Shown here in pieces: positions 1-1,886 of a stretch of DNA of 64,000 bases. Below the pieces are notes generated by a model. It saw only the letters and a program-made list of their open reading frames with translations. It was not told the origin of the DNA and searched no databases. The stretch's first letter is position 1. The number at the start of each line of letters is the position of its first letter. The position numbers were made by a program, and so were the translations under genes. The stretch comes from Desulfobacteraceae bacterium. GTDB taxonomy: Bacteria; Desulfobacterota; Desulfobacteria; Desulfobacterales; Desulfosalsimonadaceae. The DNA lies in the NCBI GenBank assembly GCA_011389935.1, contig JAABTJ010000015.1, positions 1 through 64,000 on the forward strand, written 5' to 3'.

Positions 1-711
1 GGCAAGCTCTGACAGGTAGCGGGTCTTTCCGCCGGGGACCCGGGTATAGGCGTGCACCGGACCCGCATTCACCCGGAACGGCCGGGGGCAGACATACGGG
101 TTGGAAACGCTTTCGGCATGCACCAAAAAGAGCGCCGCACTGGCATTGCCAACAAGCATCCCTTCTCCGGTACCCATTTCCGTGCAGGTATCCACACAGA
201 CCCGGTCCCCCATTCCTATTGGTTTTATTTCTAATATTTCCGAAATTATAAGATCTGTTTGTTCAGGTTTTGATTTAAGTTTTGAAAGGGCTTTTTTCAG
301 GTCGGCTGGATCGGTCGGCACGTACAGGATTCGCTCCACCCCTTTCTCAAGGATGCCGAAGGCAGTTTCCGCATCTGCAAGGCTCCTGGCTTCCACAATG
401 ATATTTTGCGCATTTTTGGCGATCAGGTTTTCAACGGGGATAATGGCCCAGTCGGAAAACCCCAGGATCACCTGCCGGGTCTGGCTCAGTCGCACGATTT
501 CCTCTTCGTCCGTACCGGAAGTGACGTGGAAGTATACCACGTCCTGTCCCATTTGAATATCCCCGTCCTCGGATATGGTTTTTATTACGCCCAACTCCTT
601 CACCTTGTCCGTGTACCCTTCGGGGACCATTATGGCGTCAGCCCCGCCTTCAAGGGCGGTGGTGACCAGGTCCTTGTTCCAGGGATCGACCCTGACCCAG
701 ATCTCTCGCAT
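1..711 (-). CDS. 3-dehydroquinate synthase II (partial, cut by window edge)
   Basis: The first 237 codons of an NAD-dependent, class II (archaeal-type) 3-dehydroquinate synthase are visible; the frame runs off the left edge, and family members are usually about 325-380 residues. The ATG at 709-711 has AAGGAG nine bases upstream. The opening MREIWVRVDPWNK, the block GMGDRVCVDTC (166-176) and RPFRVNAGPVHAYT (210-223) are typical of the family. The enzyme oxidatively deaminates and cyclises 2-amino-3,7-dideoxy-heptulosonate (ADH) to 3-dehydroquinate in the cytoplasm, bypassing the DAHP/AroB route. It sits 40 bases behind the gene for ADH synthase, which makes its substrate, so both probably answer to the upstream attenuator. 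Confidence 0.93.
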   Translation of the reverse strand, partial: MREIWVRVDPWNKDLVTTALEGGADAIMVPEGYTDKVKELGVIKTISEDGDIQMGQDVVYFHVTSGTDEEEIVRLSQTRQVILGFSDWAIIPVENLIAKNAQNIIVEARSLADAETAFGILEKGVERILYVPTDPADLKKALSKLKSKPEQTDLIISEILEIKPIGMGDRVCVDTCTEMGTGEGMLVGNASAALFLVHAESVSNPYVCPRPFRVNAGPVHAYTRVPGGKTRYLSELA

Positions 712-751: not shown

Positions 752-1549
752 CTACTCCAGAATTTTTAATGCTTCATCCACCGGCGAGTCTTTGAAGATG
801 ATTGCGGCCATGGCCCTCACAAGCTTGGTCGGATCCTTGTGCTGGAACACGTTTCTGCCGATGGAGACCCCTGCCCCGCCGGCATCAATGGAACCGCGCA
901 CCATTTCCAGGATATCCCGGTCCGAATCCATCTTGGCGCCCCCTGCGATCACGACCGGGATGGTGGAGCCGTCCACGACCTCGCGGAATGTCTGGGCAGA
1001 ACCGGTGTAGGAAACTTTCACAATATCCGCCCCCATTTCCGATGCCACGCGCGCGGCATGCTTCACCACGGATACGTCGTATTCGTCCTTGATTTTCTCC
1101 CCCCGCGGGTACACCATGGCAAGCAGCGGCATGCCCCAGGTGCGCGCTTCATAGGCCACGCGGCCGAAATCGTTGAGCATTTCCTTTTCCTGGCCGTCGC
1201 CGATATTGACGTGAATGGAAACCGCGTCGGCGCCGAGTTTGAGTGCTTCCTCAACGGAGCAGACCAGGGTCTTGGAGTGGGGGTACGGGGACAGGCTGGT
1301 AGATGCGGAGAGATGGACGATCAGGCCGATGTCCGCCCCTTTTTTCCGGTGGCCGGCCCCAACGAGCCCCTTGTGTTCGATAATGGCGTTTGCCCCGCCC
1401 GCGGCGACCTTGTCAACGGACTCCTTGATGTTGATGATGCCGTCGATGGGGCCGACGGAAACGCCGTGGTCGAGCGGCACCAGAAGCGTCTTGCCGGTGT
1501 TCCTGTCCATGATGCGTTCCATGCGGATGTGCTTGCCGATGATCGTCAT
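752..1549 (-). CDS. 2-amino-3,7-dideoxy-D-threo-hept-6-ulosonate (ADH) synthase, DhnA-type aldolase
   Basis: This 265-residue protein is a DhnA/class I fructose-bisphosphate aldolase-like TIM barrel. [11 protein letters not shown] (about 24-34) is the family signature and the lysine in DIVKVSYTG is the expected Schiff-base residue. Together with the class II dehydroquinate synthase directly downstream, this makes it the enzyme that condenses an aspartate semialdehyde-derived unit with a 6-deoxy-ketohexose phosphate to start aromatic amino acid synthesis. A strong ribosome site (AAGGAAAGGA) lies just before the ATG at 1549. It is the first structural gene behind the leader peptide and terminator at 1637-1788. 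A plain class I aldolase is the alternative, made unlikely by the neighbour and the leader. Confidence 0.92.
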
Positions 1550-1636
1550 GTTGCGGTTCCTTTCCTTGTGGTGTTTTCATGCGCCAGGGATGGTATGATA
1601 CCGCTCCCCGAACTCCCTTTCGGCTTGCTTTCAAAC

Positions 1637-1682
1637 AAAAAAAGCCGCGGGCTTGACTCTTGGTCTGCCCGCGGCTTTTTTT
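1637..1682 (-). terminator. Attenuator terminator of the aro operon leader
   Basis: A perfect 16-base inverted repeat (AAAAAAAGCCGCGGGC and its complement) encloses a 14-base loop and ends in seven T on the minus strand. It stands between the leader peptide stop (1705) and the ADH synthase start (1549), so it acts as the attenuator; the GGC end of its 5' arm is also part of the competing antiterminator. It reads as a terminator on both strands. Confidence 0.9.
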
Positions 1683-1773
1683 GTTTGCTCTTATTTACGA
1701 TTCATCACGCCATAGACAGACCTCTTGGATAGGTATAATAATACACCCAATAAAAATAAAAAAAGCGTCTGTC
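1662..1773 (-). promoter_or_regulatory. Alternative RNA helices of a trp-type attenuator (regions 1, 2, 3)
   Basis: On the minus strand region 1 is GACAGAC (1773-1767, leader codons 6-8), region 2 is GGTCTGTC (1722-1715, codons 23-25) and region 3 is GGCAGACC (1669-1662), overlapping the terminator 5' arm. Region 1 pairs perfectly with region 2 over seven bases. Region 2 pairs with region 3 over eight, with one G-U, and may extend by GGC:GCC past an internal loop. A ribosome stalled at the aromatic codons would cover region 1 and free region 2 to form the antiterminator. A ribosome at the stop codon would cover region 2 and let the terminator form. Confidence 0.82.
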
Positions 1774-1788
1774 GGCGGATGAATTCAT
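1705..1788 (-). CDS. Aromatic-rich leader peptide of the aro operon (attenuation)
   Basis: This 27-codon frame starts with ATG at 1786-1788 and ends TGA at 1705-1707. Codons 9-20 encode FFYFYWVYYYTY: three Phe, six Tyr and one Trp within twelve codons. Such a run in front of an intrinsic terminator and an aromatic biosynthesis gene is the hallmark of a sensing leader peptide. Its stop codon lies just past helix region 2, as in classical attenuators. The ribosome site is weak: AGAGAAAG lies about 15 bases upstream. No other start codon exists in this frame as far up as the proposed promoter. Sensing Phe, Tyr and Trp charging together fits a gene making the common precursor of all three. Confidence 0.85.
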   Translation of the reverse strand: MNSSADRRFFYFYWVYYYTYPRGLSMA

Positions 1789-1857
1789 CGGATGGGTATT
1801 TTTCTTTCTCTTTGTTTTTAAAGCCCGTTTTTGCGGATCATCGTAGCTGTTCTGCCG

Positions 1858-1886
1858 ATGTTGTCTATTTGCAATGACATTGTCAA
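1858..1886 (-). promoter_or_regulatory. Putative sigma70 promoter of the aro leader
   Basis: A perfect TTGACA (1886-1881) is followed after 17 bases by CAACAT (1863-1858), a poor -10 box, on the minus strand. Transcription would begin near 1851 and give about 60 bases of 5' leader before the leader peptide. It sits immediately downstream of the DUF151 gene, which supports an independent operon start here. Confidence 0.5.

Follow-up and report, generated by a model that had tools for sequence, protein, structure and literature searches.

The window, by which we mean the whole 64,000-nucleotide stretch of DNA analyzed here, opens with two minus-strand genes, ADH synthase and, downstream of it, DHQ synthase II; the latter is incomplete because the contig begins at window base 1. 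Matches to TIGR01949 and NF002627 bear out the identity assigned to these genes in a preliminary description of the locus. An intrinsic terminator lies 89 nt before the start of ADH synthase, and upstream of it is a short leader ORF. Farther upstream come an ORF of 165 codons that NCBIfam does not name, and miaB. The elements of the locus, in window coordinates, are as follows:

1..711, minus strand: DHQ synthase II (NF002627, E 2.2e-94), first 237 codons only
752..1549, minus strand: ADH synthase (2-amino-3,7-dideoxy-D-threo-hept-6-ulosonate synthase), predicted first regulated gene (TIGR01949, 360 bits; equivalog cut-off 299.45)
1632..1687, minus strand: 3:4 intrinsic terminator hairpin, with a 21-bp outer stem and a U-run at 1643-1637
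1644..1652, minus strand: region 4, GCCCGCGGC, 3' arm of the terminator; 3:4 covariation in relatives
1662..1675, minus strand: region 3, GCCGCGGGCAGACC, 5' arm of the terminator; pairs with region 2 in the antiterminator
1697..1726, minus strand: region 2, 3' strand of the 1:2 hairpin in the minimum-energy fold, core GTCTGTC at 1721-1715
1722-1709, minus strand: antiterminator strand GGTCTGTCTATGGC inside region 2
1729..1764, minus strand: control codons 9-20 (three Phe TTT, six Tyr TAT and one Trp TGG, plus Val and Thr)
1705..1788, minus strand: leader peptide ORF MNSSADRRFFYFYWVYYYTYPRGLSMA, ATG to TGA, 27 codons plus TGA; kept in relatives
1761..1788, minus strand: region 1, 5' strand of the 1:2 hairpin in the minimum-energy fold, core GACAGAC at 1773-1767
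1858..1863, minus strand: candidate -10 element CAACAT, at 17-nt spacing from TTGACA; weak, three of six positions
1881..1886, minus strand: -35 element TTGACA of the probable leader promoter, exact; present at 70 of 76 loci

The preliminary description had proposed a 27-codon minus-strand leader ORF with an aromatic run at codons 9-20, and the sequence contains exactly this: ten of these twelve codons are aromatic (F9 F10 Y11 F12 Y13 W14 V15 Y16 Y17 Y18 T19 Y20). The 1:2 pairing of GACAGAC with GTCTGTC is likewise present, but as the core of a longer hairpin that joins 1788-1761 with 1726-1697. The 2:3 helix, given earlier as 8 bp, extends to 13 pairs over 14 positions (GGUCUGUCUAUGGC at 1722-1709 with GCCGCGGGCAGACC at 1675-1662), so that region 2 occupies the entire GC-rich 5' arm of the terminator. 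The 3:4 terminator itself was correctly recognized, with its 21-bp outer stem and U-run, and 2:3 and 3:4 are mutually exclusive because both use the terminator 5' arm. The leader stop codon had been placed just past region 2, which is true of the 1:2 core; relative to the full hairpin, the stop lies within the 3' half. As for the promoter, the TTGACA at 1886-1881 is exact, whereas the -10 element is weak, CAACAT matching at three of six positions. The leader start has a near-absent Shine-Dalgarno match (-0.9 kcal/mol).

These features depart strongly from chance. The whole leader region folds at -80.8 kcal/mol, compared with -45.8 +/- 4.5 for shuffles (z -7.7); no ORF with 10 of 12 aromatic codons arose in 1,000 dinucleotide shuffles of the 400 upstream bases, and the 2:3 duplex (-23.2 kcal/mol) was equaled by none of 200 shuffles. 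When the full leader, its 5' ends masked, was folded at equilibrium, the terminator always resulted, as in other attenuators; the logic of such an element therefore requires kinetic folding, and because equilibrium folding of the full leader was uninformative, we folded the nascent RNA up to region 3, that is, to the terminator loop and prior to region 4. The ribosome was modeled as a 16-nt mask beginning at the P-site codon, and pairing upstream of the ribosome was disallowed. In the absence of a ribosome, region 3 had a mean probability of 0.00 of pairing with region 2; this rose to 0.92 for an A site at codon 9, 13, 14 or 18, was 0.62 for codon 20, and fell back to 0.00 when the ribosome stood on the stop codon. 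Almost the entire aromatic run is thus placed for antitermination. Thermodynamic folding had been put forward as a check in the preliminary description, and its outcome agrees with that account, 2:3 forming solely with the ribosome at aromatic codons.

The reading we favor, at a probability of about 0.92, is a predicted transcription attenuator of the trp/phe type, operated by the translating ribosome. It would respond to how far tRNA-Phe and tRNA-Tyr and, to a lesser degree, tRNA-Trp are charged, and would control ADH synthase and DHQ synthase II. The locus holds the ORF and the mutually exclusive helices, the folding model depends on ribosome position, and the arrangement is conserved with compensatory changes. 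Very probably, the leader serves to switch on aromatic amino acid synthesis when Phe, Tyr and Trp are scarce. When aromatics are plentiful, the ribosome would reach the stop codon and cover region 2, and 3:4 would terminate transcription; if the leader is not translated, 1:2 would form and 3:4 would terminate again. A ribosome stalled at codons 9-18 would cover or block region 1, 2:3 would then pair, no terminator would form, and the operon would be transcribed. What we infer within this scheme is that the leader is translated, that transcription terminates and that starvation brings read-through.

For comparison, ADH synthase was used to collect 80 loci from named genomes and as the query against 36 genomes of the window's family; leader counts refer to the 78 loci having at least 400 nt upstream. 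A leader ORF with at least seven aromatic residues per 12 codons is present at 70 of 78 loci (1.2% of shuffles), and one with at least five at 74 of 78 (18% of shuffles), with a median length of 27 codons and a median distance from stop to terminator of 24 nt. Cultured species that carry the leader include Desulfatibacillum alkenivorans (L074), Desulfonema magnum (L048) and Desulfobotulus alkaliphilus (L065). Phe, Tyr and Trp account for 14.0%, 18.4% and 3.1% of the codons in leaders but for 1.4%, 1.8% and 0.38% of those in the ADH synthase genes, each being some 8-10 times commoner in the leaders. The aromatic reading frame (F, Y, W) is kept across many families, and the remainder of the peptide varies. 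TTGACA occurs within 130 nt upstream of the leader at 70 of 76 loci (shuffles 4.2%), and the Shine-Dalgarno energy falls below -5 in 53% of the relatives' leaders, as against 11% of shuffled sequences and -0.9 in the window. ADH synthase is present at L033, L038 and L047 with no recognizable leader of the aromatic type upstream, and three of four weaker ADH synthase-like paralogues (~55% identity, L107-L110) lack a convincing leader. Leaders also favor particular codons, TTT accounting for 93% of Phe and TAT for 82% of Tyr (62% and 67% in ADH synthase genes); this bias may serve isoacceptor sensitivity or an unstructured loop.

The preliminary description had envisaged sensing of all three aromatic amino acids. 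The predicted sensing of Trp is supported at the level of the family (3.1% versus 0.38%) but is minor in each leader, a Trp codon occurring in only 59 of 76 leaders, which are also the number holding F, Y and W together, and just once in the window. It had further pointed to homologous upstream regions as the place to look for aromatic leader ORFs and covarying helices; with leaders at 70 of 78 loci and covariation found, its interpretation of the locus as an attenuator is supported by comparative sequence evidence.

Helix conservation was examined over the same loci. The 2:3 pairing beats 95% of shuffles at 71 of 76 loci, and the 1:2 pairing reaches p<0.05 against shuffles at 51 of 76. In the covariation alignment (A1, 58 sequences), 95.3% of cells are paired in 3:4 together with the second hairpin described below (slid registers at most 61%), with 84 double-change cells against a shuffled mean of 22; for 2:3 the values are 78.6% of cells paired (slid registers at most 42%) and 31 double-change cells against 15.4. 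The clearest single evidence comes from a second lineage of seven loci (L069-L072, L076, L078 and L079). Region 2 (GGTCTGCC) is translated into the conserved GLP near the end of the peptide, whose C-terminus reads GLPxVR in one lineage and ASTFKRL or VRLDF in the second. There, region 2 is GCGCCTCGACTTTTAAAAG and region 3 is altered to match (CTTTTAAAAGCCGTGGCGC), so that pairing is retained: both strands of 2:3 have been replaced, which indicates that selection has preserved the pairing of the RNA and not the peptide. The 1:2 pairing was not found in these seven loci.

The window's genome (G000) carries further aromatic leaders. Upstream of trpE (L195, contig C12, 22398-23792, minus strand) is a Trp peptide, ..MQYADQQNWWWQYRNRD.., containing NWWWQ and followed by two serial terminators, and the trpE loci of the order mostly share this layout. 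A Phe leader, MVPDYASSMFFFSFRRFFFIFRSVHPVILL (FFF), with two terminators precedes a DAHP synthase-prephenate dehydratase fusion (L241, contig C24, 8988-9695, minus strand); leaders of the same type stand before this fusion in G005, G007, G011 and G023. At the DAHP synthase-aroB locus (L249, contig C32, 3575-4294, plus strand), where canonical aroB comes after DAHP synthase, the Phe/Trp leader MHKIDRKGIAFIAEGFWWRKTETSGCAPWPVPL contains FWW and its terminator lies immediately before DAHP synthase; the corresponding leaders of relatives contain WYWW, FFWRWW and WFWYWW. That the codons of these same-genome leaders match the product of each operon provides independent support for the window leader as a joint aromatic sensor. 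GCCGTGG...CCACGGC was considered as the genome's usual terminator and rejected, the exact pattern occurring at two places only, one of which is the trpE leader.

Several other explanations deserve consideration. The hairpin could be a constitutive intrinsic terminator, belonging to the upstream transcript or acting partially before the operon, with a spurious AT-rich ORF and no sensing at all; a T-rich spacer could yield Phe codons by chance, and the ribosome binding site of the window leader is indeed poor. However, shuffles that keep dinucleotides fail to yield such ORFs, the F/Y/W frame is kept over many families while other parts of the peptide change, and the element stands after a conserved TTGACA rather than immediately after the upstream gene. 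Moreover, 1:2 and 2:3 are both conserved and neither is needed by a bare terminator, so that this explanation, rejected on the shuffles and on helix conservation, is very improbable. We attach the same slight probability to a riboswitch or to an antiterminator that depends on a TRAP-like or other protein; the ORF would then be incidental, and an aromatic ligand or protein would choose between 2:3 and 3:4. Here, the codon content is what is conserved, not an RNA pocket; no Rfam family reaches its gathering score in the window or the tested relatives; and specificity-matched leaders precede trpE (WWW) and the DAHP synthase-prephenate dehydratase fusion (FFF) in the same genome.

Least probable of all is that the leader peptide acts in trans, or that the stalled ribosome controls translation instead of termination. 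A trans-acting peptide has a precedent in peTrpL of Sinorhizobium meliloti (PMC7298713); yet the leader has no Pfam or NCBIfam match, and its sequence outside the aromatic run tracks RNA pairing (GLPxVR versus ASTFKRL/VRLDF), not a protein family. The ADH synthase start, moreover, is located 89 nt past the terminator.

Most relatives have more than the window does. A second hairpin with a U-run (T2) is present at 62 of 76 loci, usually 23-40 nt before ADH synthase; it is absent from the window, from L002 and L004, and from the second lineage. Region 4, the 3' arm of the first terminator (T1), is complementary to region 5, the 5' arm of T2: 91.7% of cells are paired (slid registers at most 59%) over columns 114-124 with 145-155 of alignment A1 (58 relatives, for example L060:2846-2982), with 20 double-change cells against 8.4 shuffled, and 4:5 appears in the fold of the region 4-to-region 5 segment at all 61 loci tested. 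Own-locus 4:5 duplexes are stronger than cross-locus ones (n=50, Wilcoxon p 6e-6), a preference that recurs in an independent set, the trpE leaders (n=23, p 0.01, permutation p 0.0008). The possibility that 4:5 arises merely from one terminator copying the other was tested with a control pairing, 3:6 (the T1 5' arm with the T2 3' arm), and rejected: 3:6 showed no own-versus-other preference (p 0.45 and 0.52), in contrast to the clear preference for 4:5, although the control is imperfect in that G-U asymmetry weakens 3:6 generally. On the ADH synthase gene tree, three branches (L024, L037 and L066) carry joint changes in columns 115/154 (P 0.0095). For 117/152 there are four such branches, with compensatory changes on three (P 0.03), and for 116/153 there are two, with a compensatory change on one (P 0.017). 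At L037, L056 and L066, region 5 fits region 4 while region 3 is unchanged; L003, L006, L021, L046 and L077 are counter-examples, in which 5:6 is kept and one 4:5 pair is lost.

The two-terminator layout also precedes trpE and the DAHP synthase-prephenate dehydratase fusion in this lineage, the window's genome included. We judge the chances to be even that most relatives possess a six-region relay with one leader ORF and two serial terminators, T1 (3:4) and T2 (5:6), and that the window's genome holds at least four attenuators of graded specificity. In such a relay, stalling would form 2:3 and free region 4, which would capture region 5 and so disarm T2 too; once T1 had formed, T2 would be left free as a second barrier. 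The alternative is that T2 is a plain second barrier without 4:5 coupling. Should the 4:5 relay hold, this would be a layout in which one stalled ribosome turns off two terminators in chain.

The operon downstream varies in content. G026 has ADH synthase, DHQ synthase II, chorismate mutase-prephenate dehydratase, aroA and aroC in one operon; in the nearest relative, L002 (ADH synthase 91% identical), the gene run consists of ADH synthase and DHQ synthase II only, followed by an opposite-strand ORF, and the window ends too early for comparison. The window's genome also encodes a complete canonical DAHP synthase and AroB, so ADH synthase and DHQ synthase II need not be the sole entry to the pathway and may instead constitute a second one. 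Neither of the two genes was found in five genomes of the same genus (G001-G005), four of which have canonical aroB; gene gain or loss among members of the genus may account for this absence, as may incompleteness of the assemblies.

A survey of the phylum drew 296 genomes, 77 of them with a close ADH synthase. Leader and terminator were found in families f2, f3, f4, f6, f8, f9, f12, f13 and f14, and also in f24, f26, f44, f46, f56 and f66; the leader is missing in families f34, f37, f41, f72, f85 and f93 and in most of f55. The same predicted switch thus precedes ADH synthase in many, though not all, families of the phylum. In family f46, some genomes have two ADH synthase paralogues (L162/L169 and L166/L168), each with its own leader, and these differ in aromatic pattern (..FYFWYWFSHARGRGRGAV and ..YYYYGYACARGPAG..). 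Most f34 genomes (L172, L173, L178, L181, L182, L183, L185 and L187) have, in place of an aromatic leader, a conserved 50-codon ORF, MQTNVEELVSIDWTLAELVASGKVKYEEALKYAD..YLNELLKVRG, directly before ADH synthase.

Searches of Rfam, Pfam and NCBIfam for a named leader family returned nothing at threshold; the Rfam models Phe_leader (RF01859) and Thr_leader (RF00506) scored 26.2 and 26.7 bits in the window, below the gathering score of 55. The preliminary description had regarded the locus as a case not yet described. This has to be qualified: a 2005 paper (PMC1173090, Table 7) marks an attenuator, taken from Merino's database, before Desulfovibrio vulgaris aroA'>aroB'>aroQ-pheA>aroF>tyrA>[trp operon], and states that the depth of such attenuators requires substantial further work. 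Attenuation of the same genes in a related lineage was accordingly proposed in 2005, but as a table marker in a text without the word 'leader'; the leader peptide, the regions, their conservation and the specificity are not in that paper. In a broad premature-terminator screen from 2010 (PMC2965389), the words 'aromatic' and 'desulfo' appear nowhere in the main text. A literature search, with most subscription papers outside its reach, returned nothing further on attenuators in the phylum, and an earlier description is possible. We consider the window element a new, well-supported case of leader-peptide attenuation, as judged from its sequence and that of its relatives. It assigns a predicted regulator to the bacterial ADH synthase/DHQ synthase II pathway, suggests that leader-peptide attenuation of amino acid genes has been kept over much of the phylum (Desulfobacterota-type sulfate reducers), predicts leader peptides missed by genome annotation, and offers, in the leader, an explanation for the database-predicted attenuator of 2005.

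The closest analogy is to E. coli trpL, with which the window element shares four regions with 1:2, 2:3 and 3:4 alternatives, an ORF over region 1, an intrinsic terminator and the overall logic. However, trpL has two Trp control codons, whereas the window leader has ten control codons for three amino acids, placed within the loop that separates region 1 from region 2, with the stop inside region 2; the operon and the phylum differ as well. Enterobacterial pheL (RF01859) resembles it in its run of aromatic codons and in the sub-threshold structural match (26 bits), but reads Phe only and governs chorismate mutase-prephenate dehydratase rather than the initial steps of the pathway. Reading of several end products of a branched pathway by one attenuator is familiar from the ilvGMEDA (Ile, Val, Leu) and thr (Thr, Ile) leaders, which differ in serving the branched-chain or aspartate family where the window leader would serve the aromatic one. 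With regard to the relatives, the tandem attenuators of Salmonella mgtCBR (PMC3641672) likewise have a short-ORF leader that controls premature termination before an operon; two separate ORFs are used there, whereas here a single ORF precedes two terminators apparently coupled by 4:5, making the tandem-terminator layout a candidate new variant of attenuator.
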